Shown piece by piece: positions 13,801 through 58,400 of a DNA stretch of 64,000 bases (the first letter of the stretch is position 1; every line of letters begins with the position of its first letter). The stretch comes from Owenia fusiformis (Eukaryota > Annelida > Polychaeta > Sabellida > Oweniidae). The stretch is taken from NCBI GenBank assembly GCA_903813345.2, contig CAIIXF020000010.1, positions 34,275,425-34,339,424 on the forward strand, read 5' to 3'. The notes below the pieces were generated by a model that saw only the letters and a list, made by a program, of their open reading frames with translations, was not told where the DNA came from and did no database searches. Both the position numbers and the translations under genes were made by a program.

Positions 13801-16800
13801 CGCGTAAGTTTAACATTGCATTTTTTTAATTTAAATTTTTTTTTGCACATCCGCCAAATTAAATAGCCGCCAATATGCCAAAAAATTAAAACATTTTTTA
13901 AATAATGCATCTTAAGCTGGAACCAGTGGAATTTCACTATCTCATCTCTGTTATTGAAAATTCAAACTTACGCTTCTTCTTTCATTTGCACCATGAGACT
14001 GGTTAATGCTTCAGCATGGCCTGAGAACTCCAATTTTGGCAATATGGGTATGATGTGTTCTATTTGCATATTATGGGCAAAGATAAGCTGCCACAGGAAA
14101 TACTGCTCGATGGATTCCCACTCCAGACTTGCATCTAAATAAAGGAAATGAAATTGATGAGATAAAATTGTGTAAATAATAGATGATCGTAACACCATCC
14201 TACTCTGTAACAGAAGTCAACACTTCAACAGTGCATTCAAGTCACAGTAAGCGTATATTTTTGACTTTATAATGAGCCAATGAAAATTTATCAATGAGAC
14301 AGAGATATGTACAGTATAACAAAAATAACTTACTGAGGACTGAAAGAATTGAATCTTTCTTGATGATGACCAGATGTCCCATAAGAATCTCACAGACTAG
14401 ATCCTGGAGCTGCCTGCCATCTATTGCAGAAGTGATGAGATGCAACAGCCGTATGTTTCCTACAGCTATATTACTGAACTGAAAATACATTACCAGATTT
14501 CAAGAAAAACAGTCCCACTTCACTAGAGCTCAGGGTTTGTGAGTAGGGTGCATATTTCCTATTTTTATATTTTAGATTAACGCTTCTGTGGAATATTTGC
14601 ATATGATTGTACTCAATTTCAAGTGGATGCAAAATAGAGAAGGGTCGGTCACGGTTCGGTTCGGTACTGTGTAGCCAAAAACCGTGGTTAATCGAACCGA
14701 ACCGTGACTGACCTTTCTCTAATGCAAAACAACTCATACCTGGGTGTATATATCTGGCAGTATATATGTGAACATGGCAACATCATCTTCCTGACAAAGC
14801 TGCAAAAAATCAAAACATGCTCATTTTTTATCATTTGGTTCTTTTCATGGAGACATCCTGTTAGAGTATATATGAGATGTTAAACATGTTCAGGGTGACA
14901 CACAACATACAACTCTCCATATTTTCAATAACATTATTATTTATGGCTGAATCTTCGTGAATTTTCATTGCGTTAAGTTGGTGAAAAAGTTGATAAATGC
15001 CAATTTTGAGTTGTTTCTTAATTGATTATAATTATAGTATCATACTATTACTAGAATCCCAGTATTCGGATTGGTTTAAGACCATGCAAAAATCGTTAAA
15101 AAGTATTTCCCTATATATAGAAATATTGAGTTCTTATTCACTTACTGTTAGATCTGAAAGGAGTGACGTTTCTAAATCTCGGTCTAAACCTTTACAAAAA
15201 TCTTTGTACGATGACATTTTTTCATCTACCATTTTGCTGGAAAAGATAAAAATGAAGATCAAAAATAGAGCACATTTTTGCAATGGCCTCCTTCAAGATT
15301 GTATTGTATTGTATTGTATTGTATTGTAAAAAGTTCTTGACATGCAAAATGTCACCATCTGCCATTTGTTAGTTGCCAACCGCCGAATACCAACCCTGAA
15401 CACTGTCAACAAAATAATTTGAAGGTATAATATATATGTCACCACTTCTGGTGACATAAAAAATAATTTAAAATTAAATCCCATTTCTAAAATTTACATA
15501 CTAAATTGAATTTTTGATAACATGCTACATATTGGCCTTTTAAGGAAATCAAATCATCTCACCTGACTTTAAGGAAATATAGAAGGAGATACCCTATCCG
15601 AGGTTGTTTATTAGCCATCTCCCCAAGGAGTATAAGGAGGGGATCTCTAGCAGGAGTGTCTTCAGGGGTTTGGCATAAATTCCTGAAATCAGATTTATAA
15701 TATCCATAAAACCTGAGAACACAATCTGACAAAAAGATGGGTGAAAACCCAGAATTCATATAGGTGAACTTATACTTTACTATCTTTATGTAAAAGTGAA
15801 TCTAACCTCCTTAACAATCTATCCACCTTACTGTACTGATAAAAATATATGTGGCATGTCATGGCAAGATGAGCCAATCATATTGTAATAAAACTTCACT
15901 TGTGTGTTGAGTGAAAACAAAAAAGTTTTTTTCTTCAAACCAAATTTGACAATGTAAACATCGGAAAAATATATAAACTGCACATATAAGGGTATTTTGA
16001 AAGAGGTAGACACAGGCAGGTGGAGGAACTTACCTAAATAAAACAAAGAGAGGCGTCCCCACTGAATCTTCAATTGAGCTGGAAGTAACAAGATGTCTAG
16101 TGGAGAAAATAGTATTAAACAAGGTACAATACTACAGCTTACCATATAATATACAATATATCGAATAGATAAGATAATTGTCTCAATGCAATATAGTAAG
16201 TTTAAAATGTCAGCTTCACCATTTCTAATTTTAAGTGTCAGTTTCACTATTTCTGATTTAAAGTGTCAGCTTCACAATGTCTCATTTAAAGTGTCAGCTT
16301 CACCATTTCTTATTTAAAGTGTCAGCTTCACTATTTTTAATTTAAATTGTCAGTTTCATTTCTTCTGATCATTCTATATTTGAACGCAATATGTCAAAAG
16401 TGTCGACTCGTGCAGTTTCAACATGTTTTCTCTCTAAAATTTCAATGAACTGGTATACAATTTAGAGTATTAACTACATGTGTGTATAGTATATTGCATG
16501 ATGATGTCATCATTTTGTGATTTACTTTGCATTTTTCAAAACAATTTTTCAAACTTACTCATCGTCCACATGTTTTGGAAAGACGTTGTTGTTAAACGTT
16601 CCAGAGAGAAGTTGGCAAAGACAAGTTCCTAATGTTGATGATGTGTCTTGCGATTCAAAATCATCCTGTAGAAAAAAGAATCAATATTTAAACAATTAAT
16701 ATCTGAAAATTATACACACCAGTTATACACCCCCTGGTGTGTCAAAGCCCGTATACTGTTGTAAATTTGTTATGAAAACTGAAATAAATTATTTTGAAAT

Positions 16801-19800
16801 TGAAATTGAAAAAATTAATGACACATTCAGTGAATGATTCACCATAATTTGTGTCAGAAATACAGCTGTCATAGTTGTTTATAGTTTTTCTTGCATTTCT
16901 ATACAATTTAGTGTGTCTTTTTCTATATTTCTTAAGCCTCAGTCCAATTTGCTCTATGGCGGCATGCAGTGGCCATAGCTTCAAAAAAATCGATATAGAA
17001 AATCTACATCATACTGTTTATCCCTATATTTTATGCTACATATTATCTCAATTTTGGGAAGCTTAACAGCCGCCGTACAGTTGCCGTAGATCAAATGTGA
17101 CTGAGGCATTATTGATTCTTCTCTGCTTCTCTATTTAATATTTTAAAACAGAACTGCCATTATATACAATAATAAAGCGATACAAAATTTCATCAATTTT
17201 ATTTCATCCAGTGTAAAAACGTGACTTTGAATTCCCGGGAACATTTTTTCAAGGGACACAGTTTTTTGAGGGGAACACATTTTTTGAAAATCAGTACGTC
17301 CCAGGGACGCAATCTTGGACAAACCTACTGAAAACATTGAATAGTCTCCCTAAAAGATGCACAATGCATTCTAGAATTACAGGGAAAATAGTGATATATT
17401 GAGAAAACACCAACTTACATCTTGTATGACTGTTTGTACAATGTTGTCCATTATTTCACACTGATTATCATTGTCCCTGCAAATCATAATAAATAAACAT
17501 TATTATTTATTTAATCCTTTAATCCTATTGTATACTGTATGTTCAAAGAAGTTTTAGATAAAAACCATGTTTGAATATTAAACGAAATTTTTCAATGCAT
17601 TAGTATCAAAATATGTTTAATTCAACATTTTATATAAACAAATTTTAAATATTACTTCACAAAATGAACCCTAAAAAACAAAGATTGGTTCTGAAGTAAC
17701 CTCTTAACAGTAAAGACAATTTTTATGGTTCGCTGCCCCGTCCTACCACTGCCATTGCTCTCGCAGCCAAGGTCAAATATGGATTTTAAGTTTAATGTTG
17801 ATCGATACTGGGTAAACAATGACCTGAATGGAAATGATAATATAAAGAAAATTGTCCATCAATGACAAGCTTCGGTTGGCTCAGTGAAATCAAATGTTTC
17901 TCTTATACTTAAAAAAAGAGTAGATGAAGCTTACTTTTAAGAAGCTATTTGTCAAATGAATGTGAAGTTGTCTACTTCACAATGTTCACAATTCACTATA
18001 CTTACATTTCATTTTGGAACTGCACAACCAATGGTTTGAGATCACCCTCTAAAAGGTCAACTAGCTCACTAATATCAATATTCTGACATCGTGGCGGAGG
18101 TAATTTGATCGGCCGAAATTTGTTTTCTTTTAATTTTCCTTGAAAAGAAAAAAATCAATGAACATCTGGTTCTTGCAAACAAACACCAGGGAAATCATTG
18201 CAAATTATAGAATTCTTTCATCATATACCAAGTAATTTTGTTAAATTACTGAAAATTATTACTTTCTGAAAATAACAAAAGAATTTTATGAAATAACAAG
18301 ATAAAATACAAGATAACCTAGGAAGACTTTCTGAAATAACAAGAAAGACTCTGCCAAATAATTCACAAGAAAGACTTCTACAAAAAAAATCATAACAAAC
18401 AATTCAAATGTACCTATTGGGATATCCTCATCCTCAGAGAACTCGGCCTCTGAGGTGTTGTTCGGGGTGCCAGTGGGAAACTCTGATATATGATTGGAAG
18501 GTGTAATAGAAGGAGACTCTGTTTCCATGGGGATAGACTCTGGCTTCGGAGTTGGAGATGACAGGTCTCTCGAAGTAATTATTTCTTGAATCTCTTCTTT
18601 GGGACTTGACACTTAAATAAAAAAATATTCAAAAATTATTCTTGCACTTTTAACAAATTAATTAAAATATGATTCCTGTGTAAATTCATCACTCTGGTAA
18701 TATATTAATAATAACTTAAGTTCATTTACTTCAGAGTAAAATGTTTTATTTAAAATATGATCGTTTTAAAAATAATGTTCAGTGTAACTAGAATAATGTT
18801 TTTAATGAAATAAAATATTATAACAATATACAGTTCTTTTTTAATAAAATAGTTTCAATGAGGCCTATCATATATACTGTAGTATAGAGGCTTCTAAGCC
18901 AACTAACCTCACAAAAATACAGTGTAAACAATTAAAAAATTAATATTCACCATCATGTGAGCAGAATGGTGCAAAGTTTTCCCGCACCATAAGGCGTAAT
19001 TCTTTGTCTAGTTTGGCATTGTCAAATAATGGCGATAATGACCTGCAAACATATAGGAGCACATAATTCTGATATCTTAAATTAGTCTGTATTGGTTACA
19101 CTCACTCACGGTGGTCTTAAATTCTAAAGAATAAAGAAATATCTTTTGTCAGGTACAAATTCAACACTTCTCTCATTTATAAAACATTGTATGGATGCGA
19201 TTAAAACGTTAATATAGCTATGTACAGATGTATGATATAAACTCCAGTAAAATCTGTCTAATCTCAACAGGTGTTCTGATATACAGATTTCACTAAATGT
19301 TAAATTTGAATTTATTCATGATGAATTATCTTCTGTACTTACTGTAAAACCTTTTTATTAATAATAGTTTTTAGTGAAGTGTAGATCCCGGCTCTGACTT
19401 TGTCAGTTAGCACTGGATAGAAGTTAGTCATGATCTGAAATAAAGATAATATAACATACCAAGTTGATCAATAAGTTCCGAGAAAAGCATCTTGCACTGT
19501 ATTACAAAAGGGAATGTAAAATAATCACTTTGATTCCCTTAATGTCCACTTATTGGAAAAAATACATAGTAACCATGGCAACAGGACTTTTGCTAGTGAT
19601 CCCGTGGTTTGCACTTATTATACAATCAATAAGCTAGAAAATGAGACACTGATCCTCACTTTAGTAAAGTGGTGTTAGTTAGACAAGGCACAATTCTATT
19701 ACTTTAACCTTAAACATGAAGTCTATTTGAGAAAATGGTGTTAAACAAGGTGCGATACTATTACTTACCCTACACAAGAAGTCTAGAAGGGTGGCAGTGA

Positions 19801-22800
19801 TGGCAGGATGGGGTCTCATAGAGTGATACATAACTAAGATACCAGGCTCTGTAACAGATAAAGCTCAACATTTTAACAAGGACTACATTATGCAGTTTTA
19901 ATATCAATTTCAATATCATACTAAAATCATTTGAAGCACAATTAATAAAAGAACAATGTTTTCTCAAAATATGAGAGCAAAGAAGATATTGTTAAAATGA
20001 TTTGTTTAAATTAATTTATTTAATTGGAGATTTCCCAGTCAGGTCAGTAAATCAACAGTGCATCTATAATGGAAAAATCAAAGTAGAAGATATTGAAATT
20101 ATGATTTTCTTGAATTTTCAATGTTACTTTTTCCTCTATTTATTTTGCAGTAAAAAAATCATAACCATCATGATGATACACTTACCTATATTCATAATGC
20201 TATCTTTGCCCTCTTCAAAGAAAAGCCAGTCATAGAACAAAGATAATTTGGCATTTGATGCAGCGACATTGGACTGAAAACAAAAAGCTTTTGTTTAAGA
20301 TACATGTATTTAACCAAATTTTTGAACATCTTAATCTCTTGTCTCTAAAATCGGTTCGACTCATTGAGACCATTTTTATTTTTGCCACTTTTTCCATTTA
20401 ACATCCCTTCCTCTCTACATCTGAGAACTTAATTTTAAGAATTTTCAAAATAAAAAAAATTCAGAGACGGAATATCAATCCTCACTCCGTTCGTTGAGTA
20501 GACTTACTGTACATGTGGTGAGAAGCCAACCAATCACAGCCCAGCGTGGTATGACATCGGAACAGAGAAGATCATTGGACGGGTGAATGACGCCACAAAT
20601 ATAGCGTATGAGATCGCATCTCAGCGACTGACTCTCTGGCGTTGAAAGGTACTGAAATCACATGTAAATTAGTTTTAAACATGTCTTATTTGAGCATTAG
20701 TTATTCATAGATTGCCCATCACAAACTAATTAGCGTTATTATCAATTCTCCCAACTGGACCTATTAGTATTCAGAATTCGCAGGGCTTTTCTAGGATAAG
20801 CAATTTCTAAGCGATTTGTTCTATGCTACTGAGTCTTCTATTTTGCAGATGTATTACTTAAGGATTTTGAGCTCGTTTATTTAAATGTTTCATATCTTAT
20901 TATTATTACATACAATTGTTACAATTGCACAAATTTTGTGATTTAAACTCAAAATTTCAATCAAGATATTTGACATCATATTTTGCAATCGGTTTTTAGC
21001 TACATCTACATAATAATAAATTTTCTGTACTATTTCACAAAATGTTATCAATTTTTCACAAAATGTTATCAATTTTTCACAAAATGTTATCAATTTTTTA
21101 CCAAATGTTATCAATTTTTTACCAAATGTTATCAATTTTTACCTGTCTTTGAAACCATTCTTGATATCTTTTCTGTTGGCCAAATTTCACTTTTGTAGTT
21201 AGAAAAGCTAGTTTATTTTCCATATCTGGGGTCAACCTTGATACAAGATATTTCCTAGATGTACGGACTAACATCAGCTGGTGTATGCCTGAAAATAAGG
21301 ATTATAGCATAATTTATGTATGTATGTATTTTGTTGCTTGCCACTTGTATTTTCTGTCACCTTTCTTAATCCAATATATGATTCACTATTGTAGAAGTAT
21401 ATAAATTTCATTTAAACACTTAAATAAAAAAAATCAAGAGTTGTGGTAATGGGTAGGGCTAGGCACAAAGGCTTTCGAACCCCTCACTCCCTTCAGTCGT
21501 TTGGGGTACAGAAAACGTTTGTGCCTAGCCCTGCAGGGTGTATTCGACAATATTACCCCTGCTCTTCAGTCTATATTTCTTAAATAATAATTATGAGAAC
21601 AAATATTTTATTAATTATTCAAAAAAATTTCTGATAAAATCCATAAATACCTGTAAAAGTGGGACTCAGTGTTGAAGGATTATATAAAATATCTTGCCAT
21701 AATTTCTCAAATTCTGGTATCCTAGCAACATACTGAAGCAGACGGACTAAATCTCGACCAATCAGACAACAATCTTGCCACTGAAATAAGAACGTACAAA
21801 ATTGTTTCATTGGTGCAAGATACACATTTTTACTGATATATGAGTAATTGTAAGGCTAGCAAATATTTACTAAATACCTTGGAGCATACATTTAGTAAAT
21901 GGTTGGAACACAAGGCATTCGACAAGGAAATCTGGTTATGTTTAATATATTTTTAGAAAACCAAACAAAAATTTCAAGTATCAATACATGTACTTTTAAT
22001 GAACTCGAAGGACAATAGAAATTTTAAAATTTTGATCCTATATTATATTATATTGAAAGGAATTCCCAGATTACAAACTCAATACATTTGCTTGGCCCTT
22101 CAACAGGATGTTAAACTTATTTAAATGCCCATGGTCCTATAACTAGAAATCCTGGTGCTTTTGAAATAAAATCATATAAAAAATACCAACCTTTTCTGTC
22201 AATGCTGCTATACAGAAGTCTACTTCCCGTTGTCGTAAAATGTGAAATGTCGGATTATTATGGTCCACAATCACTCGTAAATATGTATAAATTGCAGTTG
22301 ACAATAATGTTGGGTTGTTATTAACCCAAGCTTTGTTCTCAGTCAAAATGTCCAATACTGCCTCTGTGAGATAGATATTTCGTGGCGAGACGTCACCTCC
22401 AGCGATTTGACGCAATAATGAATGGATGACAGATTCTGCCATTGGCACTGCATTTTTCACAAATTCTTTGGACACCCAGAGAATCTGAAAGTTGAAAAAT
22501 AATTACATCATCAGGGGGTTACTCTAATTGTGCTTTCATCAGACATTGCACCTTTAAATGAGTTCAGTTCATTTTCCTGGATATTGGGATATTTCTGAAT
22601 TTTACCACCTTTACCTGGATTTTGTCAAATTATCTATGTTTTCCAAAAATAACCCGAGTTTCCTATATTTTTGCCATATTTCATTGGGTTTTGCCATATT
22701 TCCGTGAGATTGCCATATTTCACTGGATTTTGCCAAAATTCCCTGAGTTTTGCCATATTTACCTGGGTTTTGCCATAATTCCCCAAGTTTTGCCATATTT

Positions 22801-24722
22801 CCCTTTGCCATATTTACCTGGGTTTTGCCTGTGTCTTGTAACTTAAGCCACTTCTCATGTATAAGCTGATTGATTCTGCCAATAGCAATATTCAAACCAT
22901 CTCTAGATACGAGAGTCATGTCTCTGTAGAACTACAAAAACAAAAGTAAGAAAAATGCAGCAACAGTTGTTTTAAATTGCAAATAGAGTAGATGAAAGTA
23001 ATATTCAATAACACATTAAATGACACTGAAAATACCAGAAGTTCAATTGATTAATTCCCTATGTCAAAGGTGTTACTTAAAAAAATCTCCCAAATTAAAA
23101 CTATATTGATATGATCATGTAGATTAATTGAATTTTAAATTTGAAAATGTGCGAGTAGTTATTTTCAATTTGTGAGTCATACTGATTGATTACTGTATAT
23201 CCGAGTCAATTATGTAGGTTCGGCTATTATGAATTAAAACTATTTTAGGATTACTATGAGATACAGATATTGACTCATAAGGGCAAAATATGAACAATAA
23301 CTTACCCTCTGAGCAACTTTCTGATCAGAAAGAGCTCCATATAACAGTCCATGCTGAACTTCTTCATGCTGTTTTGCTCCCCGTGCAATCTGAAATAGGC
23401 AGAATATGGTGTAAAATAGGCAGAATATGGTGTGAAATAGGCAGAATATGGTGTGAAATAGGCATTATAATGTAAATAGGCAGAGTATGGTGTGAAAAGG
23501 GCAAAATATGATGTAAAATAGGCAGAATGTGAAATAGACAAGATATGGTGTGAAATAGGCAGAAAATGGTCATGGTGTGACAAATAACTTTAAATTCAAA
23601 TAATTAAAAAAAACATTAATTCAATAACAGATATGAGAAAGGACTAGAAATTATATGTTTGATGATTCAAGAGGTAACAGAAAGTCATCATATACTCACA
23701 TATGCATTCAATATGTCATGTGTTTCTCGTTCAGTCTTTCCCGTAATCATCCCATTTACGATACCATAGCACCTACTCAACCTCTGAAAGAGACACAAAA
23801 AGGATCACAATTAAGGTTCAAATCATTGATTGTCAGCCCATCTGTGTTGACTTCAGTAGTCTTAATGGCTCAGGGGTAGAGAATCAGACACTGATCTGGA
23901 AGGTTCTGGGTTCGATTCCTGCATTGGGCAAAGGATTTGGCACTCCTTTTTGAGTCTGTATCTGGTTTGTTACACTATAGCTTCCCAGAGGCGCCCTTTG
24001 GTAGTTACAGCACAATCCATGTCAATAACACAATGTAATAATGTTATCATTGACACAATCCCTGTCAATAACACAACATATCAATGACACAATCTGTGCC
24101 AAATAAACAACATAATGTCAATCCCATTGATTTGTGTTTTAAATAATGCGTGAAATGTTGTTCAAAATGGTAACGATTAATCTTCTAGTGACTTTGTTAT
24201 TGTTTGACTCAGGACCGGACCTAGATTGTGCTATTTCAAAAATGTATCTGTCGGTGATCAGATGTATCAGATATTGTTTTGATTGAAATTGAATCATTCT
24301 TTAGCAATGTTGGTTTTAAGATAAACTTAAAATCAATTCATTCTTGCAGTGAGACAGAGTCAAAAACAGAGCCGAGATCTGTGATTGTTCTCCACACAAT
24401 CAGCTGATTGTGATATTGTGATCCGCTCACAAAGCGGAGGAGGAAGTATATAACTTCTCTAAAGACATCTACACAGGACAAAAACGTTACAAACGATAAT
24501 CATACCAGCATTTCGACCATTGCAGTTCGTTACTTATAAGACTTAAAAAACTCAATGTCGACAGCTCAACCAATATTTGACCTAGATTCCCACCAAATTC
24601 GTGGGCGATCGTTGTTTCCAATGGCATAATAAAACGTATATTTTTACCTCATCTAGCTCATCTTTAGGGTCAAATGGGGTATTGTTGAAAAGAGTAGATG
24701 TTCCGATTTTCTTGTTGTCCAT
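10803..24722 (-). CDS. INTS3: Integrator complex subunit 3 (SOSS-A), complete, 27 coding exons
   Basis: Integrator/SOSS scaffold: a helical-repeat nuclear protein that acts in snRNA 3' processing and transcription attenuation, and binds SSB and INIP in DNA repair. Exons, 5' to 3': 24648-24722, 23700-23783, 23306-23389, 22818-22931, 22191-22484, 21651-21780, 21143-21288, 20508-20651, 20186-20273, 19769-19848, 19343-19434, 18951-19042, 18414-18611, 18006-18138, 17419-17476, 16559-16665, 16034-16078, 15563-15682, 15146-15236, 14740-14799, 14334-14478, 13972-14134, 13111-13284, 12260-12345, 11852-11924, 11352-11526, 10803-10871. All junctions are GT-AG and in phase; the sum is 3120 nt (1039 aa), close to human (about 1043). 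Diagnostic blocks: [77 protein letters not shown]. An acidic linker spans residues 475-541; the basic tail is KPRPKKRKK then DDDSD. The start is the only in-frame ATG before DPKDELDE; the frame is open upstream from a TTG. Confidence 0.96.
11568..11700. mobile_element. Short CAGGGTGG-ended MITE in an INTS3 intron
   Basis: CAGGGTGG at 11568 is inverted as CCACCCTG ending at 11700, each followed inward by an A- or T-rich stretch. About 133 bp, no ORF, in the intron just 5' of INTS3 exon 26. Confidence 0.45.
12886..13070. mobile_element. piggyBac-type MITE
   Basis: A 185-bp element whose ends CCCTTAAATGATCAA and TTGATCATTTAAGGG are near-perfect inverted repeats. It is flanked by TTAA (12882-12885) and TTAG (13071-13074). 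A TTAA target and CCC-beginning termini are the hallmarks of the piggyBac superfamily. Lies in an INTS3 intron. Confidence 0.7.
14635..14721. mobile_element. 87-bp hAT-type micro-MITE
   Basis: TAGAGAAGGGTCGGTCACGG at the left is inverted at the right (CCGTGACTGACCTTTCTCTA), leaving a loop of about 35 bp. Perfect 8-bp direct repeats ATGCAAAA flank it (14627-14634 and 14722-14729). A TAGAG terminus plus an 8-bp target duplication indicates hAT. It ends 18 bp from the exon 20 donor of INTS3. Confidence 0.8.
15298..15328. repeat. (ATTGT)n microsatellite
   Basis: Six ATTGT units in an INTS3 intron, followed by a single divergent copy of the dispersed sequence (ACATGCAAAATGTCA) also found at the edge of the 48 kb minisatellite. 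Confidence 0.85.
16082..16142 (-). repeat. Dispersed copy of the INTS3 exon-10 donor-side segment
   Basis: On the minus strand, GGTAAGCTGTAGTATTGTAC continuing through ACCTTGTTTAA to TAGACATCTTGTT parallels the sequence starting at the exon 10 donor (19768 leftward) at roughly 80 percent by eye. It lies immediately 5' of the exon 17 acceptor. Confidence 0.5.
16208..16365. repeat. Minisatellite, about 33-bp unit, five copies
   Basis: Repeated unit GTGTCAGCTTCACCATTTCT plus an ATTTAA spacer, in the intron between INTS3 exons 16 and 17. Copies differ at several positions. Confidence 0.8.
19690..19770 (-). repeat. Duplicated 5' splice site segment of INTS3 exon 10
   Basis: On the minus strand the exon end TAGACTTCTTGTGTAGG with its gtaagtaatag is followed about 75 bp downstream by a diverged copy, TAGACTTCATGTTTAAGG then ttaaagtaatag. 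The duplicated unit therefore includes the last exon bases and the donor. Confidence 0.6.
21030..21142 (-). repeat. 21-bp minisatellite starting at the INTS3 exon 7 donor
   Basis: On the minus strand the intron opens GTAAAAATTGATAACATTTG, and this unit repeats about five times, each beginning GTAAAAAA or GTGAAAAA. The functional donor is the first base of the first unit. Confidence 0.85.
21455..21532. mobile_element. Short hairpin element
   Basis: AGGGCTAGGCACAAA and TTTGTGCCTAGCCCT are perfect 15-bp inverted ends around a 48-bp middle. Probably a micro-MITE; no target duplication recognised. Confidence 0.55.
22655..22830 (-). repeat. Minisatellite spanning the INTS3 exon 4 donor
   Basis: On the minus strand, units of about 20-22 bp containing TATGGCAAAACCCAG or variants repeat about eight times. 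The exon end GGCAAAACCCAG with its donor gtaaat recurs exactly at 22757-22774, 55 nt into the intron. Confidence 0.85.
23393..23580 (-). repeat. Minisatellite forming the INTS3 exon 3 acceptor tract
   Basis: On the minus strand the unit CACACCATATTCTGCCTATTT recurs about seven times with variation, and the last copy supplies the acceptor TGCCTATTTCAG. Confidence 0.85.
23860..24010 (+). mobile_element. tRNA-derived SINE
   Basis: A tRNA-like head contains an A box (TGGCTCAGGGGTAGAG, about 23873-23888) and a perfect B box (GGTTCGATTCC, about 23913-23923), with spacing appropriate for RNA polymerase III. A non-tRNA body (GAGGCGCCCTTTGG and beyond) follows. There is no good acceptor stem, so this is a SINE rather than a tRNA gene. 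It lies in INTS3 intron 1, antisense to the gene. The 3' boundary is uncertain. Confidence 0.7.
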
Positions 24723-27657: not shown

Positions 27658-27659
27658 TA

Positions 27660-38300: not shown

Positions 38301-41300
38301 CAAACATACAATTATTTCAAAAAACAAAAGATTAATTCTTTGGAGATCTATTTCTAAAAACATTTTCTTGTGTTTGATGTAATATTATTTTTCTTACAAA
38401 TTTCTATCTCTGTGTCAGTACTGTATAGATACTGATTTAAGATATATACATGTATGTACATGTATTCGTTTTTCTATTAGGCTGAAGATGCGGAACGTAG
38501 GGACAAGAACTTGGAAGAGGCAAAAAAGATTGTTATTGAGGAAGATACCAGCCTCCCAGCAGCCACTCAGGTATATGATTATGTACCCACAAATGTGTTT
38601 GTACCCTTAAATTTGATAGTATGTTCCCACAAATGTGTCTGTACCCTTGAATTTGATAGTATGTACCCACACATGTGTTTGTACCATTAAATTTGATAGT
38701 ATGTACCCACAAATGTGTTTGTACCCTTAAATTTGATAGTATGTACCCACAAATGTGTTTGTACCCTCAAATTTGATAGTATGTATCTACAAATGTGTTT
38801 GTACCCTTGAATTTGATAGTATGTACCCACAAATGTGTTTGTACCCTCGAATTTGATAGTATGTACCCACAAATGTGTTTGTACCCTCAAATTTGATAGT
38901 ATGTACCCACAAATATGTTTGTACCCTTGAATTTGATAGTATGTACCCACAAATGTGTTTGTACCTTTGAATTTGATAGTATGTACCCACAAATGTGTTT
39001 GTACCTTTGAATTTGATAGTATGTACCCACAAATGTGTTTGTACCTTTGAATTTGATAGTACTATAGTCCTTGATTGTGACACTAGTCAATCCTCTTGAA
39101 TATAAAAGTGTCATTGAATATGTGATAGTCCATTCAATGTGTTACTATTTTTGAATATATCAGTCTGTTGAATGTATTAATTTAAGTACCAATAAATGTG
39201 TAGGTATCCGCAATTTGTTAGTACTAGTCTGTCCAAATGTGTCAATCCCCTTGAATGTATTGGTACCCTTGAATATGCAAGATCCCTTTGATGTGAAGGT
39301 GCTTATGTCAGTCCCTTGAATTTGTCAGTCCGTTGAATATATCAGAGCCAAAAAATGTGTCAGTACCCTTGAATGTATTGGTACTATTGAAAGTCTAAGA
39401 ACCCATGTCAGTCTCTTTTTGGTTGTCCAGGACTATGCCTGTAAAAGATGCAGCCGAAGATAATAAAATAAATTTTTGAAACAAATATAGAGTTCTAGAA
39501 TACTATGAAATCAAAGAAAAATGTCAAAAAGTGTTCTTGAGTGCCATATCTGTATATTGTAGATAAAGCTACGAGACAGCAAAGAAAACCGTGACAAGCG
39601 TGTTAAGATATTTGGTTGGGTTCACAGATGTAGAAGGCAGGGGAAATCACTCATGTTTATCATACTGAGAGATGGAACAGGGTACATCCAGTGTGTTCTC
39701 AATGACAAATTAGTAAGTATATGACTTGGTCTTTCTGTAGCCTGGTTTATTTTTTTCATTCATGATGCTTATGAATATATAGTAGTACATTCAGTGGAAT
39801 GAGTAATAAGTAATTCAGTTCAGATTCTACTACATACGTATGTAGAGGCAAACCTAAATAAAATATATAGATATAGGCGAGGCAATTAACCTTTATCACA
39901 GGCGAGGCAAATTTTAGCCCCTATACAAGATCACACCAATAGGATGTATTGCCATTGCTTTGTATGAGGCTCTAGGAAATAGTAGAAGAAATATCCAAGC
40001 TTTAATTGTTTCACTTTATGTTTTAGTGTCAGACATACAATGCGCTAGTTCTCTCTACAGAGTCTAGTATTTGTGTCTATGGTACAATTAAAGTCCTACC
40101 CGATGGGAAAACTGCCCCCGATGGTCACGAGTTGATAGCAGATTATTGGGAACTTGTTGGACTTGCTCCTCCAGGTGGCGCTGATAACCTACTCAATGAG
40201 GTAATTATTTGACTCAACGAGATAATTATCTGACTCAATGAGGTAATTATCTGACTCAATGAGGTTACATTTTTATTGAGATGCAATGTGGTAGTAGTTG
40301 ATGTTTTTAACAAGACTTAATGAGGCAATTTTAGACTCCTTGATCTAACTTCTTAGTTTTCAATCCTGCTGTGTAAATTTTAAGGCAGTTTTTCCACCCT
40401 AAAATCTCTATCTGTCAACTGATAACTGTTGAGCAGTCAGGTTCAACCTTCATTTTCAATATGTTGTACAGTCTTTGAAATTCACTGTTAATTTTTCAAG
40501 GAAGCACATGTAGATGTTCAGCTGGACAACAGACATATGATGATCAGAGGAGAAAACGTAAGAATAAACAAAATTATAATATCATTGTTGGAATCGCTGT
40601 GTTCTGATTGGTTAATGCAGAAAAATCATTGTAATGTGAACAGGATTGTCCTCCATACAATGAAAGTCATGCTTACCATGAGCACCATATCTTAAGGTCT
40701 ATATACTTGTATTAAGTTGAGTTCTAAATTGAAGTGTTAAAAACTTAACAATTTTGTAGGTATTTTTTGATTTGAGAATGAATTTGTTATTTGTATTTAA
40801 ACACTGTGTACTTCTATATATCAGTAACTCTAAAATTCACAACTAGTGTAACAGAAGTCATTCTTATCACTTTTAAATCAGTCCACATATTGCATTACAT
40901 TTGAATTTATATTTAACCCAACGTATGAATTTGTATTTTAGACTGCAAAGATTCTCAAAATGCGCTCAGTTACAATGCAGTGCTTTAGGGACCACTTTTT
41001 CAATAAAGGATATTTTGAGGTGAGTTCAGTTAGAAATATTACAATTATACCAAGCTTTTTTTTAAAGTGAATATATAGATGAAAGGCGTTCACATGTCGA
41101 TTCACATTTTGCTTTCAAGTCTCACATTTCACTTTCATGTTCATTTTTTCTCTTTGATGTTTCACATTCACATTTTCACTTGACAATTTTTGGTACTTTT
41201 TTCATCAATGGAACATTGAAAAATGAAATGTATAGAGAAATTAAAAAAATGAAACTAAAAACTATATTTAGAAATGAATTAGTTCACTAAAACAGCATTA

Positions 41301-44300: not shown

Positions 44301-45371
44301 ATATTAAAATTGAGCCTTTTAAATTGATAATATTCAAGTTTAAGGGAACTTTCTTATATGCCTGCCATGTTAATTGACCCGAATCAGCCACCTGGTGGTG
44401 AAACTGGTAACTACCTACTCACATTTGGGTAATTGATGCTATGTTTCATTTTTTATAGGTGGATCTCTTGATGCCTGGTGTAGGTGAGATCGTTGGTGGC
44501 TCCATGAGGATGGACAACGCTGAAGAACTAGAAGAAGGTTACAAACGTGAAGGGATTGATCCATCTCCATACTACTGGTACACAGACCAGGTAGGTTCAG
44601 TATTTCAGTAACATTTTGCATATATTTGCCTTTGGTAGGCCTGTAGCCAAGGTCAAGGAGGGTTCACTTTACCAAAAATTCATTGGGACTCACATTAGAG
44701 AACTTAGCCTAAAATCACTTGAAAGGTGCTCAGAATGGTGAAAAACTTCATAATTTTGAAAAAAATTGGCTTAACCCCACCCCCCGGGCCTGTTCGGCTT
44801 CTTGCATTAATCTTTTAGAATAAGCTGTAAGTTATTCTGTAACTGGCTGAATCTTTGTCTGTTGTTGATGTGTCAGTTTTGAAAGGGATACTAAATGCCA
44901 TTGAGTCAAAAATCTTTATTGAAGCTTCTCTGTTGTCGCTACCAAGGAGATTATGTAAACCTCATTTTCACTGATTTGTGTTCAGCACCGTGGTTTGAAT
45001 CAAATTAATAAACTTATTCACTTTTTGTTGGTGACAACTTTTGTCATGGTTAATATTCACGGGTGTTAAAACACAAATATACCATGAGCACATGCTTTGA
45101 GGATCCGCGTTGTTTGAACCTACCGCCGAGCACACTTATACATTAAGACCCGTTACACAGTCATGATACCGCCGAGCAAGCTCATTGCATCATCGGGTCT
45201 GCTTTACCCCCGTGATATTGTGTGTTTATTTTTTTTCAGAGAAAGTATGGTACTTGTCCCCATGGCGGCTATGGACTTGGTCTTGAGAGGTTCCTCTGCT
45301 GGATGTTGAACAGGCCACACATTAGAGAAGTCTGTCTTTATCCTCGCTTCATTGAACGATGCAGACCATAG
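35335..45371 (+). CDS. NARS1: Asparaginyl-tRNA synthetase, cytosolic, complete, 14 coding exons
   Basis: Class IIb enzyme charging tRNA-Asn in the cytosol. Exons: 35335-35374, 37872-38128, 38481-38570, 39563-39712, 40027-40200, 40501-40557, 40942-41019, 41514-41591, 41896-42017, 42556-42691, 43188-43301, 43651-43782, 44459-44590, 45240-45371. All GT-AG and in phase; 1692 nt, 563 aa (human 548). Residues 14-99 are the eukaryote-specific N-terminal domain ([20 protein letters not shown]). The OB fold follows ([26 protein letters not shown]), then HMMIRGEN. The catalytic core shows motif 1 ([18 protein letters not shown]), motif 2 ([12 protein letters not shown]337 and E339; HLAEYTHIEAE) and motif 3 ([11 protein letters not shown]537). 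Also [13 protein letters not shown] and EIVGGSMR; the end is [12 protein letters not shown]. All catalytic signatures look intact. The tiny first exon rests on phase and an in-frame ATG, so it is less certain than the rest. Confidence 0.96.
35690..36313 (+). mobile_element. 5'-truncated LINE, reverse transcriptase C-terminal remnant
   Basis: A frame from about 35698 to 36054 contains [20 protein letters not shown] then NERNNLI, the C-x-C-G...H-F-L-x-x-C-P signature found at the C-termini of non-LTR retrotransposon polymerases. It is followed by 250 bp of 3' UTR and an A tract at 36301-36313. Only the last 120 or so residues remain, as expected of a truncated insertion. It sits in NARS1 intron 1, in the same orientation as the gene. 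Clade not determined. Confidence 0.65.
36778..36930. mobile_element. Palindromic MITE in NARS1 intron 1
   Basis: Arms of about 55 bp (TTTTACAAGATGGTGGAAGG on the left against CCGCCATCTTGAAAACAGG on the right, with GGGGAACC and GGTTCCC inside) enclose a loop of about 40 bp. No ORF. Confidence 0.55.
37105..37435 (-). pseudogene. Unidentified broken coding fragment
   Basis: From 37435 leftward one frame reads [20 protein letters not shown], then a polar helical stretch with [14 protein letters not shown] and [15 protein letters not shown]. Near 37230 a second frame takes over with [16 protein letters not shown] and [16 protein letters not shown]. The handover suggests a frameshift in an old coding sequence. 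The cysteine/histidine content and helical character look protein-like, but I recognise no family. Lies antisense in NARS1 intron 1 and may come from a mobile element. Confidence 0.3.
38571..39060. repeat. 40-bp minisatellite beside the NARS1 exon 3 donor
   Basis: Twelve near-identical units (GTACCCTTAAATTTGATAG plus TATGTACCCACAAATGTGTTT). The array starts within 10 bp of the donor at 38570/38571, and each unit contains GTATGTAC, a plausible 5' splice site. Diverged remnants continue to about 39440. Confidence 0.93.
40190..40266 (+). repeat. 21-bp duplication of the NARS1 exon 5 donor
   Basis: Exon end ACTCAATGAG plus gtaattat recurs at 21-bp steps: boundaries at 40200 (real), 40221 (mutated to ATAATT), 40242 (GTAATT intact) and 40263 (GTTACA). 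Confidence 0.9.
42316..42486. mobile_element. TA-flanked MITE in NARS1 intron 9
   Basis: CAGTAAAACCTGTAAAGTGG and the inverted CCACTAAGACAGGTTTAACTG end a 171-bp element with TA on both sides. Internal AAGTGGAACACC motifs recur. A related degraded copy is visible around 58680-58800. Confidence 0.75.
43988..44434. mobile_element. 447-bp TIR element (copy 1) in NARS1 intron 12
   Basis: Ends AATAACCCAGATGCGAGTAG and CTACTCACATTTGGGTAATT are inverted (about 16 of 20). The interior matches 50992-51431 along its full length in the same orientation, including GCCACCTGGTGGTGAAACTG near the right end. It ends 24 bp before the exon 13 acceptor. Confidence 0.75.
44637..44790. repeat. Dispersed repeat fragment (copy 2)
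   Basis: Inverted relative to 1893-2032, sharing the CAGAATGGTGAAAAACTTCAT core, a GTAGCC end and a C-rich end. In NARS1 intron 13. Confidence 0.5.
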
Positions 45372-45487
45372 TGACATCTTTATGAACAGTTCAAAGTCAT
45401 TTACATTTTGGATTGGAGTGACATCTTTATGAACAGTTTAAAGTCATACATTGGATTGGAGTGACATCTTTCTGAACATTGAAAAGT
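45370..45487 (+). repeat. Three tandem copies starting at the NARS1 stop codon
   Basis: AGTGACATCTTTATGAACAG begins at 45370, 45417 and 45460, the last with TTCTGAAC. The first unit starts on the last two bases of the TAG. Confidence 0.85.
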
Positions 45488-46236
45488 TATTTGTGAAAGA
45501 CCATTCCAGTATATCATGGTACCTTAAATGACATTGGTACTATTTTACTGTAAAAATACTTCATTGACGTTTGTTTGTGACCTATTTAAACATGTCAGTA
45601 TAACCCAGTTTCTATATTTCTCTAGATAAGCTATAAGATTCACTTTTATGTCTACTGGAAGGAGATCTTGATATTATCATGTAATTTATCATCATTCATT
45701 TATGTTCAAGTTAAGAAAAAACTGTGGTGATCACGATTGGAAAATAATAGTGTAACAGGATAAGATGAATCAGAACCCCAGCCATAAAGTCAATGCTCTA
45801 TATAATGGGGATGTTACTAAAATTTGGTAATTCAAACTGTTTGATTTAGGCATTGTTTAGGTAATTTTCTCACTATACACTAAATACCTCATATACTTTG
45901 AAGCACTTACTATGTAACCAAACATATAGTACAATACACAATGTTATCAAACATTAAATTCAAAAATGCACAATGATGCGGGAGCTTTCCCTATAATTAT
46001 CTTCTTTATTAATGATTTATACAACAGGCCCCTGGAGTTTATTTTTGGAGTTCACATATGTTTTTGATTTTAAGTCTGTAAATCTACAGATCGACCATGT
46101 GTGTCATACATGTTATTTTCATATTTGGCTTATACAAATTAATTATGAAAAATTTAATTTGAAAAGAATAATGTATAGGTGTCCAATGGCCAATAATTAT
46201 ATAAACTGTAAAAGTTTGTGTGCAATTAAATAATAT

Positions 46237-47766: not shown

Positions 47767-48014
47767 TTCTACACAAAGTAAGACAATCCTTAGTCTCCCC
47801 CACACACCAACAATTATAGTAATATGTTACTAATTTTGAGCAAGATGAACAAGAGATTTTATCTGAAAAAATGCAAATATTACACTGTACACCGCACATG
47901 TACATTTCAAAAATATATATAAATTAAAACAAAGGCCTAAGAATCTGTTTAATCAGCAGCTATTAAAAAAAACTTTTTGTAGCATTTTGTGAAGGAGCCA
48001 TTAACATGCAAAAT

Positions 48015-48880: not shown

Positions 48881-49484
48881 GCTAAATATCATGTCGCCAT
48901 TTGCCAAAATGCAAGTCTTGCTTCAAACCTTGTGAAAAATCCTCTCGTGAGTTCTAGTTATAATGCATTGTAATGGATACAAACATACAATGAAATACAT
49001 AGTACAATGTAATGCACACAACTGTAAAACATACAATTTAAAACATTATACATTGATATGAAGTCCACAAATTAATACTTTTGAACTGGCAAACTCTTGG
49101 AATTTTGTCCAGGAAATCATATATAAACTTCAGATATACAATATATATAGATATACTTGTATATTACTCTTTCAAGTTACCAACTTCTACCGACTTAACT
49201 GTGTTTCAACTTCAATATTCTGACACTGCTGGGTCTATCCATTTTTGAAGTGTACCTGTATTCACATTGACATGGTGTGTCACTGAGACTGATTTAGCCT
49301 GGTCAGCTGCCATGTATAGGAGCTATGCTCATTATTCATCACCATCGTCATAACCTGATATACTTGAGCTCATTCTGAATACCAAGGCTCTGAGCTCAAT
49401 TTGAATTTCAAATCTTCATCTCCATGTCCCCGAGTCCCTGAATTTTGAATTCAAGTCTGAGTTCATACGGTCACCATAGCATTT

Positions 49485-52400: not shown

Positions 52401-55400
52401 GAAGATCATGATTTTCATAAAATCAGTCTCAAAATTCCTTAGATAGCGGGGAATTTTTGAAAACAACCAGATAAAAATAAAGGAATTTCAAAATTAAAAG
52501 TTCGAAGGTATTTCAAAAAATTCCATTTGTAAATTATAAACCAATTGTAACCTTAAGGCTAGCTGCAACATGAATCTGCATATTAATCATTGATAAAGAA
52601 AAGTTGGTTAAAGGCAGAATCTGATCTATAGGGGGTGACAAAATTACAAGCAACGTGTACAAATGACGAATATATTCCTTACAATCTCAAATATAATATC
52701 TCCCAAAAGATTCACGATATGTTATAAATTGGTTAAGTTATAAATGATTCAAAGTGCAAAAATGGGTGAAAAATGTTTAAATTCTCCCAAATAATAAGAA
52801 TGGTAACCATTCTTATAGAAAAGTAATACATTATTGTAAAAATCTTGAGTTTTCCTGAAATAAAGTGTGCACTTTGGGTATTTTTAGAAAATAGACATGA
52901 AAAGGAATGACATGAGCCAGAAATATTCTAAAATTGAAACAATTTTTTGTTAGCCTGCTCGCTAGATCTGATTCTCTCTTTAATCTCAGAAAGTTATCCG
53001 CTGCGAGTGAAAGTATGGCTAGTAGAAGTTCACCCTTTACCTGTTTTGAAATCTCATCCAATGTCATTGGCAATATATCAGACATCTCCTGTAGGGCACT
53101 AGGTGTGTATATAGTGTGGTAGCTCACCCCATAGGTCATAGCTGGTAACATTAAGAATTCAATTTATATATAACAATCTAAGGTCATTTGCAATATATCA
53201 GACATCTCCTGTAGGGCACTAGGTGTGTATATAGTGTGGTAGCTCACCCCATAGGTCATAGCTGGTAACATAAAGAATTTAATTCATATTGATATAAATG
53301 AATCAATTTCAGGTTAATTGAATAAATGTATCATTAATGTATCAATCGCATACATTTTCTCATCTTCGTCATTTTCGTTAGACATTAAGTAATAAAAAGG
53401 TTTATTGATATCTACCTATGTCTTTAGCAACATCAACCAGTTCCTCATAACACTTGTGCTTCAGTTCTTTCCTTGGGTCTTTGACACCTTTACCAACTTC
53501 AGCCACAACTGACTTCTTACTGCATGTCACGGGAAGCTCAACCTAATAACAATGGAATAATTCAAGGATTTTGGGATGTCTATATACAACTCATACCTGC
53601 CAACCTAAGACCAAAATTTTGCGGTAGATTTTTTTTAAATTGCTGTATTTTTGCGGTAGATTTTTTGAAAATACGGTAGTTTTTGCGGTATCTTTCAACA
53701 AAATTGCGGTAGTTTTTGCAGTAGATTTTAGAAAAAACGGTAGTTTTTGCGGTAGAATTTTTAAAAAATGGTAGTTTTTGCGGTAGATTTAAAAAATACG
53801 GTCGTTTTTGCGGTAGTTTTTAAAAAAATACTGTAGTTTCAGAGGTTTGGGGTAGATTTTTGAAAAAAGTGTAATTTTGCGGTAGAAATTTGAAAAAAGC
53901 GGTAGTTTTGCGGAAGATTTAGAAAAAATGTGGTAGTTTTACGGTAGATTTAAAAAATGCGGTAGTTTTTTGAAAAACCGGTAGTTTTGCGAAAGATTCT
54001 GAAAAAATGCGGTAGTTTTACGGTAGATTTCGAAAAAAATGCGGTAGTTTTATCGTAGTTTTTTGAAAAACCGGTAGTTTTACGGAAAATTTTGAAAAAA
54101 TGCGGTAGTTTTACGGTAGATTTTGAAAATTGCAGTAGTTTTTACGGTAATTTTTTGAAAAACTGGTACTTTTGCGGAAGATTTGCCAAAATGCGGTAGT
54201 TAAACCTTTATACAATGCGGTTTTCTATATTAATACAATGTTTACATGGTCATATTGTTGTTGTTATTGTGAATACATATTTTACTGCAAGAGTGCTTTT
54301 GATAATTATAGTTTGTAAAGCAGAACTACCACCTGAGAATTATAGGAAACTATTATTTTCAAGAAAAAATAGATATACTATTTTCAAGAATAAATAGAGA
54401 CTAAACACTTTTTATTCTTCATTTCACTGGTGATCCACTCGATTACGCTGGTTACCAAAACGAACCGTTTTGGTAACAAAATGTCGGAGCGTCGAAGGCA
54501 CGATTTTTCTTTTTTCCTTATTTCACGCGTTGTAGGCAGAATCCCCACGACGTTTTTTCTCACAACGTACATCAGTATCATATGTTTTGGAAAATGTACA
54601 TGTTTGCGAAAAAATAGCTCAGATGACAACAGAATCATTGATTTACTTCCTCACTTAAGTTACATAAACGGTTTTTTCGAAAAACAGTTAAGATCTGCAC
54701 TTTTAACCCAAACCGTTTATGTAACTTAAGTGAGGAAGTAAATCGACGATTCTGTTGTCTTCTGAACTATTTGTTCGCAAATATGTACACTTTCTTAAAC
54801 ATATGATACTGATACACGTTTGTGTTAAAAATGTCGTGGGAATTCTGCCTGCAACGTGTAAAATAAGGAAACGAGAAAAACCGTACCCTCCGGATGTTCC
54901 GACATTTTGTTATCAAAACGAACCGTTTTGGTAACCAGCGTAATCGAGTGGATCACCAGTGCATTTACCATGCCTACAATGGACTGACAGCAACTTTGGA
55001 TTTTAATGTTTCAGCAAAATGTACAACTTTACAACTCTTTTACAATAAATCTAGATTGATTCAAAATACGAGCACAATATTCATATCTCCACTTTTATTC
55101 ACCTTCTAACCAGTTTTTTAGATATCAGGATGTTTGGAAATACCATGAATGAAACATTTACTGAAATACAAAATATGGATTTTACACGTTTTTACTCACC
55201 ATCTTAGAGGATCTATCACTTCACGAATTGAAATGACAGACATAATGTTCATATAACATTGGAATCATATGGTATTAAATATTGATTTGTTCACTCGCAA
55301 TATAATGATATCAATGTGTTTGTCTGGCACAAATAGAAAATAAGTACAGATAAATTGTCTTTCAAAAATAATCTGTTATGAGCATTTGCTGAAACCTTTC

Positions 55401-58400
55401 CCCCGAGACATCGTTTTGATTCGGATATCACAATACTTTTTTAATAAACCAAAACTCAATGCTTTATATTATGTGTATGTTACTGAGATAATGTGTTCTG
55501 ATGAAAAATACAACATTTTATCGTTCTGTAAACAAATTGATTAAACTATGTATAATGTATATGTGGCGTTCATTACTGATCATAACAAATCAAACTACGC
55601 ATATTTCATAAGCTAAAACAAGTAGTTTTTGTCATTTCCACTCTAAAATCATATTTTTGTTGCATTCGGAGTAAAGATCTGTGTACAAAAGAGTTTGGTT
55701 AACTACAAAAACATGGCAGAAAGAATTCTTTCTAGCTAGTGGTAGTTGGTGTTTGGACTGATTACACGCAAGCTTACTAAGATAAATGCGCAATAACCTG
55801 ATAACCACAGACCTGCCGATACCTATTTATTTTCGGGTTGGTGAAGGAATATTACAGGGACAGTACAGGAAGACTTCAATTTTTTAGCATTTCCCAACAA
55901 TAACGGGAAATTTTACGGTAGTTTGAACAAAAATACTGTTGATTTTCGCAGAAATACGGTAGATTTTCGAAAATTTACGGTAGATTTTCAAAAATTTACG
56001 GTAGATTTTACGGCCGTTCTCATGGAATAAACGAGTTTTTTAAAAAGAAAATTTACGGTAGATTACGAAAAAAATACGGTAGATTTTTTTACGGACGTTT
56101 TTACGGAAAAAAAAAGTATTTTTTTTACGGTAGTTTGTCATTTTTTTACGGAAAACGAAAAATTTACGGTAGAATCCCGTAAAAATACAGTAGGTTGGCA
56201 GGTATGCAACTGCTAGGGTTACTGCTAGACCTATGTGCTCAACCTAACAATGGAATAATTCAAGGATTTTGGGATGTCTATATACAACTGCTAGACCTAT
56301 GTATCAAATCACAAATCTAAGGTCAGATCTTAACTCCTAAAAAAGGTCAATTTTTGAAGAAAGTTGAAAAATCCAAAAAGCTGATTTATCGAAGAATTCA
56401 AAATTTAGCCAGCATATCCAGGCAAAACCTAATCAGACCTTGGCCCAAGTTGGTAAAAATCCAATGTGAGGGATTTCCTGGAATCATGATGACAAGATTT
56501 ATGCCTGCTGAGACACGCCCACCGGTGCCGGCAGATGCACGCCCATCAGCACAATATGATGACAGCAGCAGTAAAAAAGTGTTGATTTAAACACAATATT
56601 ATGCAGTGAACCCTCCAAATTGTAATAACAGCAGAAAATCAGATTTCATCCTAATATAGAGAGAAATGGAGTGAAATAAACATGAGCAGATTTATCATTG
56701 CAGGTTCTTACCTGTAAGTTTCCATTCATGACTTGCTGTGCCTTACTCCCAGGTCTCAAATAAGAAACAGCATGATCGTGGTTTGTTATAATAAGTTCCT
56801 CAGACAGAATGTTGTTCACTACAAGGTGTCTAAACATTCTCTCTGCATCTGTTCTCGAGTATTGGCTACCCCTTCCATGCAGAGCATCTCTGTTGTGACC
56901 CAACTCCATAATCTTGGCATTTTGTGATCCTAAAGCAAAATTCAATTAATTGGATGTATGGTATATTGTTGTTTTGATATATTCTCAGCGTCTGTTCTGA
57001 AGTATTGTCCAACCCTGCCATGCAGAGCATCTCTTTTGTGACCTAACTCTATAATCTTGGCATTTTGTGACCCTTAAGCAAAATTCAATTAATTGGATGT
57101 ATGGTATATTGTTGTTTTGATATTCTCTCAGCTTCTGTTCTGAAGTATTCTGTCGACCCCTTCCATGCAGAGCATCTCTGATGTGAAACAACTCAATAAT
57201 TTTGGCATTTTGTGACCCTTGAGCAAATATTAATTTATTAATGATATATTCAAGAAAACCTGTGTAGTCTGAACATCACTGGGGATGACGGAAAGTGTCC
57301 TGTGTCAAGTTTTTTTTAACATGGAAGTCTATTAGACAAGGCATTAACATGCAAAATGTTTATTTGCCCTGCCCAGGGTATCATAATAAGCTTCGACCCA
57401 AGCGCTAGGACCAGTTACTTTTGATACAGACCAGTTCACTTTCAAAAGTCACCAGCCCCGTTGACCAGTCCACCTCTTGGGCAACATAGAGTACATATCG
57501 TAACAAACCAGTGCTTAATGGCTTAGATGACACAATTTACATAGACAATACTTGCTATTTTTGCAACATTTCTGCCCGATTTCATGAAAATAAATTCATT
57601 TTTCGAAGTTTTTGTCATCTTATTTCTGGGTCAGTAAAGAACCGGTATTTCCATTGAATGTTAAATCGCTTAAGCGAAATGAGGCCAATCATACAGGTAT
57701 TAGCGATCAGATATTTCTCTTATATTACCTTATAAAACCTTGCATTAAATTATCTAAGAACCGAAGGCTTCGTTATGCAGTAGATTACTTTCTTGATCAT
57801 GAGCGGCTCCCTGATTCTCGATGCACAGAAGCAATGCGCAGTAGGTTTATCCATGGCTGACGTTCTATCTGAGTTCTCACCAAGTATGTTCAATATACTC
57901 CCCCGAGTTGAGAGGTTATATTCACTAGGTTTGAACTTGATCGTATACACTTAGATACCAAATACATGAAATTCCAGTCGATTTAACATTTTAAGGGGGT
58001 TACGAAAACGATGATAAACTAGGTATGAAAAATAATTCAATTTTATTTGATCGGTAATTTATCAAACTACCATATGCACTGTAAATAGCGCCCAATGTCG
58101 GAGTTTGTCTTATTTTGAAAAATAAGTCATTAAATACCGGCCAGTATATATTGTAGCGGACCAATTCATTTTGAAAAAGTACTGGTCAAGCTTGACCAGT
58201 AAGATTTGAAGCGACCAGTTGTTTTAAGGTACCTACTGGCCCGCTTGACCAGTGAGTAATTTGCTCTTATGACACAACCTGCACCTGCCATTTGCTACAG
58301 ACACCAAACGCCAACTGGGGAACACTGTTCTCAAAAATGTTGGAGATTACAACTTCTAGTATTGACATAAAAGTGGGACACATTGAAAGGGTTCATATTA

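Follow-up and report, generated by a model that had tools for sequence, protein, structure and literature searches.

Tandem arrays that contain exon–intron junctions, and the splice-site copies they carry, in genes of Owenia fusiformis

Tandem duplications are scattered through a 64,000-nucleotide stretch of the Owenia fusiformis genome (contig CAIIXF020000010.1, positions 34,275,425 to 34,339,424 of the forward strand), here called the window, and a sequence-only reading of it proposed that in three unrelated housekeeping genes, INTS3, NARS1 and BLM, these duplications repeatedly start at or span exon–intron junctions. The locus raises the question of whether exon edges are caught up in tandem arrays more often than random placement would bring about and, if so, how such arrays arise, why they persist and how a gene with many copies of one splice site can still be read. 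Across 63 stretches of other genes, 17 of the 48 strong arrays (Tandem Repeats Finder score of at least 100) contain an exon edge, where 6.6 to 9.4 are expected depending on the variant of the null model. Junction-containing arrays are thus about twice as common as under uniform placement, and their birth or their retention may be biased towards exon edges. The arrays are probably tandem duplications of the kind called ‘mirages’ in amphioxus, with copies purged inside exons and tolerated at exon boundaries.

Manual placement of 49 exons in the window gave spliced reading frames that are open. INTS3 occupies the minus strand (24722–10803; 27 exons, starting at the first methionine codon that could be placed), NARS1 the plus strand (37872–45371; 13 exons in the model, from a search without the gene's first exons) and the 3′ half of BLM the minus strand (59459–49485; nine exons, one acceptor being shifted). 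One exon per gene matches Integrator subunit 3, the cytoplasmic asparagine–tRNA ligase and the Bloom protein in the structure bank, and Pfam domains agree with the three identities, though a second BLM exon reaches its domain at a score below the curated cut-off. Exon numbers are our own; NARS1 exons 2 and 4 are exons 3 and 5 of the sequence-only reading. The models hold 46 introns (median length 368 bp) and hence 92 junctions, rather than the roughly 50 of which close to one in six was thought to be affected, and strong arrays affect four to seven of them (4–8%).

The spans of the three genes hold 12 strong arrays: four contain a junction, three abut one at a distance of 1–9 bp, one is found at the NARS1 stop codon and four do none of these (Table 1). 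At least eight junction-associated arrays or duplications had been claimed, and the seven that contain or abut a junction stand. The array edge lies 1 bp from the INTS3 exon 3 acceptor, 2 bp from the INTS3 exon 7 donor and 9 bp from the NARS1 exon 2 donor, while the INTS3 exon 4 donor, the NARS1 exon 4 donor and the BLM acceptors 56929 and 53141 are each inside an array; the array placed at the NARS1 stop codon does begin within that codon. Two further cases fare less well. The duplication at the INTS3 exon 10 donor is weak, its score of 32 against the adjacent stretch being reached by 6.2% of 1000 random adjacent pairs, and at BLM acceptor 53542 Tandem Repeats Finder reports no array, although a segment with this acceptor is indeed duplicated at a distance, as described below.

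Because the window gave rise to the idea, independent stretches were used as its test. The genome searched amounts to 498.3 Mb, with 477.5 Mb in 12 large contigs (32–62 Mb), and genes were found in it by Pfam models picked for conservation and a large number of exons, without regard to repeats. The first set comprised chaperonin, class I tRNA synthetase, adaptin, DNA polymerase B and MCM genes, and the second RNA polymerase, phosphorylase, aconitase and proteasome genes with scraps of two others, the Aldedh search (12 of 214 candidates scored) and the Iso_dh search contributing only stretches L057–L060. Stretches were fetched between matched exons for a part of all matches, and exons were paired by frame, splice score and model position. 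In this way 73 of 107 candidate introns (splice score of at least 9) were used from the first set, with 13 more exon pairs giving none, and 32 of 43 from the second, with seven exon pairs giving none. The full count takes in all 63 stretches (L001–L063, with L064 excluded), drops no intron and covers 376 inner exon edges, 17 of which (4.5%) are affected.

Seven doubtful or missed arrays were read by eye, whereby one was added (L008 4007, now spanning) and one removed (L022 1832, now abutting); the total stays at 17, which is also the total of the earlier assignments used in the simulation. The L009 array, which abuts the acceptor of an exon that the model missed, and a second block in L005 (4466), whose 53-bp period is also that of a spanning array, were counted as non-spanning, and the L006 array at 18–78 reaches 12 bp into the model match and only 4 nt past the true acceptor. 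Home-made profiles for missing exons served solely for the inspection of single cases. One BLM minisatellite (53617–54201) was counted twice in the paired-intron survey, so that the survey's total of 39 arrays should read 38 and its figures for the window are slightly inaccurate.

Under the null model, one founder unit is placed uniformly across introns and single junctions. Direct simulation then gives 6.6 expected spanning arrays (P = 6e-5), a formula with matched exon limits 7.0 (P = 1.7e-4), longer founder units 8.0 (P = 8.5e-4) and the longest founder unit without an exon-length cap 9.4 (P = 0.004). Exons and introns differ in composition (GC 0.43 and 0.33, respectively), but GC-matched placement keeps the excess (7.2 expected, P = 1.5e-4), and a GC preference is rejected as its source. 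Counted per stretch, 14 of the 28 that hold a strong array have a spanning one, with 6.6 expected (P = 0.0013), and drawing one array per stretch gives a median P of 0.008. In the paired introns, 9 of 16 strong arrays contain a junction in the first set (3.4 expected, P = 0.001) and 2 of 11 in the second (2.0 expected). The null favours chance, in that all single-junction straddles are allowed to survive, and the excess is understated because exons missed by the model turn spanning arrays into interior ones, L009 being an instance. The sequence-only reading had itself conceded that it looked hardest around exons; ascertainment is not the sole source of the association, which recurs in these genes chosen blind to repeats.

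What is copied is the boundary itself. The tandem unit holds exon, splice site and intron in genomic, unspliced order in the four spanning arrays of the window and in all 17 of the independent sample, and both boundary types are affected, with nine donors and 12 acceptors among these 21. Basic units measure 20–154 bp, and higher-order periods reach 375 bp. The longest rows consist of about 34 units of 82 bp with 33 donor copies (L021), 23 units of 151 bp with 23 donor copies (L020) and 25 units of 40 bp with 24 acceptor copies (L017). In 15 spanning arrays, between 0.26 and 0.78 of the unit is exonic (Kolmogorov–Smirnov test against uniform, P = 0.04), the junction tending to lie mid-unit, and the lack of almost wholly exonic units suggests that enough intron to be usable has to remain joined to the exon. 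Five of 15 units have a length divisible by three, which shows no preference and is in keeping with untranslated copies. A comparison of 24 junction arrays detected no shared sequence at E 0.01, so that the units are locus-specific and therefore belong to no mobile family (dispersal over the whole genome was not searched).

The edges of the arrays behave differently from their interiors. They had been expected to lie nearer to splice sites than random placement would put them, and this is true of seven non-spanning arrays of the window (P = 0.005), but not of 16 non-spanning arrays in independent introns, whose edges are no nearer to junctions than random (combined P = 0.92). An attraction of edges to junctions is rejected for the independent introns: junctions are copied and do not serve as array edges.

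Most copies of a boundary still look like working splice sites. GT or AG is kept in 76 of 80 recognised copies, recognition requiring at least 25 of 36 matches, a threshold that favours intact copies and at which the scored decoys were also picked; within this bias, there is no sign of selection silencing decoy sites. The NARS1 exon 4 donor array, for example, has one further recognised intact donor at +42 and one lost at +21. In splice score, the nearest of the scored decoys matches the real site at 15 of 19 junctions, falls below it at three and exceeds it at one. Its use would cause a frameshift or stops in all three frames at 17 of the 19, the exceptions being L005c, where one frame stays open, and the acceptor at 74 in L006, where two do. 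Because decoy use breaks the frame so regularly, the exon-proximal site is needed and would mostly be the one used. Exon definition, as established splicing theory has it, predicts this choice, since an upstream acceptor is paired with the donor closest to it and a downstream donor with the acceptor closest to it; with intron definition, the innermost copies would be preferred and the protein would be broken. The earlier suggestion that duplicates are tolerated where they preserve a working splice site fits these intact copies and frame-breaking decoys. As a separate observation, an acceptor array with a 96-bp unit in a chaperonin gene (L005 7256–7656) leaves a single frame open across its copies, which by eye is that of the coding sequence, and use of an upstream acceptor could add in-frame repeats of 32 residues.

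Several results weigh against the mirage reading or limit it. It is the first gene set in which the excess is found (15 of 35 arrays, 4.5 expected), with none in the second (2 of 13, 2.1 expected), the difference between the sets not being significant (Fisher P = 0.10). Without the L006 array at 18–78, which has only 4 exonic nt, P rises to 6e-4, 0.0026 and 0.011 at expectations of 7.0, 8.0 and 9.4, respectively. The excess is also confined to arrays with an identity of 93% or more (13 of 19, where 3.5 are expected), those below this level matching the null (4 of 29, 3.5 expected); tolerance combined with slow decay of the exonic copy is therefore not its cause and is rejected as a source. At three of the 19 junctions the decoy scores below the real site, and in L028 all frames would stay open if a more distant copy were used.

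We consider it likely that these arrays are mirage-type tandem duplications, in which copies internal to exons are purged and boundary copies are tolerated. Genomic segments at sites throughout genes would be duplicated in tandem, some of them expanding to many near-identical copies, an event reconstructed from the observed anatomy. Because the unit keeps exon and intron in unspliced order, it would be copied from DNA or unspliced RNA and not from mRNA or an excised intron, and local DNA duplication is the simplest source, since units keep their unspliced boundaries and are unrelated between genes. Copies wholly within coding exons would be removed by selection, as their near absence suggests: in the window, strong arrays occur at a similar density outside and inside the three genes, and 81 internal exons (11.4 kb) hold no strong array and one weak one (score 43). 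Intronic units and units across one junction would survive. After a straddling duplication, the exon would still be attached to a complete exon-proximal boundary, and the remaining copies would become intronic decoys with mostly intact sites, presumably ignored by the spliceosome, most simply through exon definition, to which the need for an open frame points.

Chance placement and a bias at birth are two rival readings. If tandem duplications are abundant and introns short (median 368–462 bp across samples), many units straddle junctions without any bias; the expectation is already high, at seven to nine of 48, the second gene set fits it exactly, and in the window the density of strong arrays outside the three genes comes close to that within them (0.28 versus 0.38 per kb), with a larger share of the bases covered outside (20% versus 9%). 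The overall count speaks against this account (P = 6e-5 to 0.004), even the weakest variant leaving 16 arrays against 9.4 (P = 0.011), and we regard pure chance as rather unlikely. A process that gives birth to duplications more often across exon edges, for instance by way of R-loops, breaks tied to transcription or stalled replication where the base composition changes, would account for the concentration of exon edges in the arrays of highest identity. Yet high identity may mean homogenisation and not youth, donors and acceptors are affected about equally, the excess persists under GC-matched placement, the other arrays' edges are not drawn to junctions in independent introns and the second set lacks an excess. 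A mutational process aimed at splice sites, one of the two explanations put forward by the sequence-only reading, is possible but doubtful. Just as tentative is the combined proposal that duplication is born preferentially across exon–intron boundaries and that rows of up to about 30 equal sites are read correctly as exons are defined first.

Boundary arrays might instead outlast intronic ones if an exonic copy held by selection kept re-seeding its array. Spanning arrays are at least as homogeneous as the others (mean identity 89.7% versus 87.6%, one interior array being counted twice), but identity shows no gradient outward from the exon, since in 7 of 15 arrays it is the exon-end copy, and not the distal one, that resembles the remaining copies more; the exon as a constant seed is rejected on this ground, and such a retention bias seems improbable. 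One BLM intron does contain an inserted element with inverted ends beside a duplicated acceptor segment, as an introner-like or transposon insertion at splice sites would predict; with no similarity among the 24 junction arrays at E 0.01 (their spread over the genome was not searched), we give hardly any credence to this origin. Misassembly deserves equally little: very regular arrays such as the 23 copies of 151 bp in L020 are hard to assemble, and their copy numbers may be wrong, but 6 of 15 spanning arrays are diverged (74–90% identity), which we argue is not a product of misassembly.

Mirage-type tandem duplication has several relatives. Gao and Lynch, in 2009, for internal gene duplication and Zhuo, in 2007, for introns from tandem arrays are cited (in PMC3087553) as having reportedly described routes to new introns. 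Like those cases, as cited, the present arrays involve intragenic tandem duplication with splice sites; unlike them, the copies here appear to stay intronic. In the Rogers model of intron gain, exemplified by potato RdRp, the excerpted account likewise has a duplication across an intron–exon boundary supply the splice signals, whereas the copies described here lie within an existing intron and would be the raw state for a new one (PMC4974935). The closest parallel is amphioxus, where the available portions of two reports state that junction repeats in the Adh, TnC, globin and PGBD5 genes do not disturb splicing (PMC3087553, PMC3902484); in the same portions, the boundary duplications concern few genes and their mechanism is called unclear (PMC3087553). 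As far as these portions go, the amphioxus mirages share with the present arrays a tandem unit that runs from within an exon across the splice site into the intron, the involvement of donors and acceptors alike, splice signals retained in many copies, a similar unit length (about 10–160 bp there, 20–154 bp for basic units here) and similar copies (81–100% identity in BflGb6). They differ from the present arrays, on the same partial basis, in that the latter reach 23–34 units (L020, L017 and L021), that genes chosen by family were used to compare their frequency with a placement null and that correct splicing, reported for amphioxus, is deduced here from the reading frames. Mirages are also marked by length variation between alleles and by somatic instability. 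The two animal groups are probably distant. Among annelid genes, the earthworm metallothionein gene has intron minisatellites, and the duplications of one clone are unrepresented in the transcript, a likeness to the present arrays; the part of that report available does not describe its repeats as splice-junction repeats (PMC12783039).

Three things go beyond the known mirages: a frequency that is compared with a null, how large the arrays are and, probably, the distance of the animal group. About one exon edge in 20 (17/376) lies in a junction array, as against the few amphioxus genes covered by the excerpted reports. If preferential birth and exon definition both held, about one gene stretch in five (14/63) would be a natural experiment in splice-site choice, and the arrays would be a standing source of new introns and exons. 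The choice of the spliceosome among many equal sites becomes testable on the 23 donors of L020, the 33 donors of L021 and the 24 acceptors of L017, as does the question of where intron gain through tandem duplication begins. In this genome, gene predictors and aligners may put exons in the wrong place.

Table 1. Arrays and duplications at or near splice junctions of the three window genes, with the element inserted in a BLM intron
Feature	Positions	Strand	Details
Minisatellite, 20–21 bp, at INTS3 exon 3 acceptor (exon 23306–23389)	23391..23570	-	Last unit forms the polypyrimidine tract; edge 1 bp from junction; unit tail TATTCTGCCTATTTCA, then G|ATTGCACGG
Minisatellite, 20 bp, containing INTS3 exon 4 donor (exon 22818–22931)	22669..22829	-	12 exonic nt
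Array, 21 bp, at INTS3 exon 7 donor (exon 21143–21288)	21033..21140	-	Starts 2 bp past donor; units resemble the donor's intronic start
INTS3 exon 10 donor region	19650..19790	-	Claimed duplication weak
Array, 40 bp, at NARS1 exon 2 donor (exon 38481–38570)	38580..39061	+	12 copies; starts 9 bp past donor
Array, 21 bp, across NARS1 exon 4 donor (exon 40027–40200)	40191..40265	+	10 exonic nt
Array, 43–47 bp, at NARS1 stop codon (45369–45371)	45370..45492	+	Starts within the codon and continues into the 3′ UTR (untranslated region)
Duplication, 120 bp, across BLM acceptor 53141 (exon 53041–53141)	53056..53289	-	86 exonic nt
BLM acceptor segment (exon 53416–53542)	53536..53591	-	Second copy at 56237–56289, identical save one 3-nt gap
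Insertion-like element, 2.6 kb, in BLM intron	53592..56206	.	Between the two acceptor-segment copies
Array, 143-bp unit, across BLM acceptor 56929 (exon 56712–56929)	56839..57239	-	2.8 copies; 91 exonic nt

The duplication at BLM acceptor 53542 is split. A segment of 56 nt, comprising the acceptor and seven exonic nt, recurs 2.65 kb upstream, and the element between the two copies has 16-bp inverted ends CATACCTGCCAACCTA, that is, the 14-nt CATACCTGCCAACC followed by TA, the last two letters having been added by eye. The 14-nt ends are each present once in the window, a 5-bp AGTTG repeat flanks the element (by eye) and CTACCGTAAA-type minisatellites lie inside it at 53617–54201 and 55934–56009. 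The element looks like a DNA transposon or miniature inverted-repeat transposable element with minisatellites, and the whole like an older junction-spanning duplication that was later split by insertion.

Other repeats accompany the three genes. A clearer match to the INTS3 exon 10 donor region than its adjacent stretch is a 60-nt stretch ahead of exon 17, with GGTAAG near its start, found at 16082–16143 (3′ end of intron 16) and at about 19712–19772 (5′ end of intron 10), possibly a short repeat that is dispersed. In the BLM intron that follows exon 53041–53141, a piece of about 84 bp (approximately 52900–52984, minus strand) matches at least 39 other sites in the genome at 92–99% identity (40 of 1691 candidates scored); this piece, beside the duplicated exon, is a young dispersed repeat. 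Upstream of the 5′-most BLM exon found, 60492–64000 contains stacked arrays of related 161–183 bp and 340–365 bp units in both orientations, which suggests a satellite family within a long BLM intron.

In the independent sample, neighbouring exons of a glycogen phosphorylase gene (L043, C8:17291162–17291832) match the same model positions (244–297 and 246–297), indicating a whole-exon tandem duplication with, possibly, mutually exclusive exons, and repeated aconitase-like exon copies on both strands (G000:C13:118673-243589) form a local cluster of genes or pseudogenes. Elsewhere in the window, arrays at 2679–2934 and 30388–30884, with units of 127 and 135 bp, are oppositely oriented members of one family (AGTAGTGGAGCGATTTTGTTCAT), a tandem repeat that is dispersed, and two long plus-strand frames at 107–1865 resemble, by eye, a rhodopsin-like receptor.

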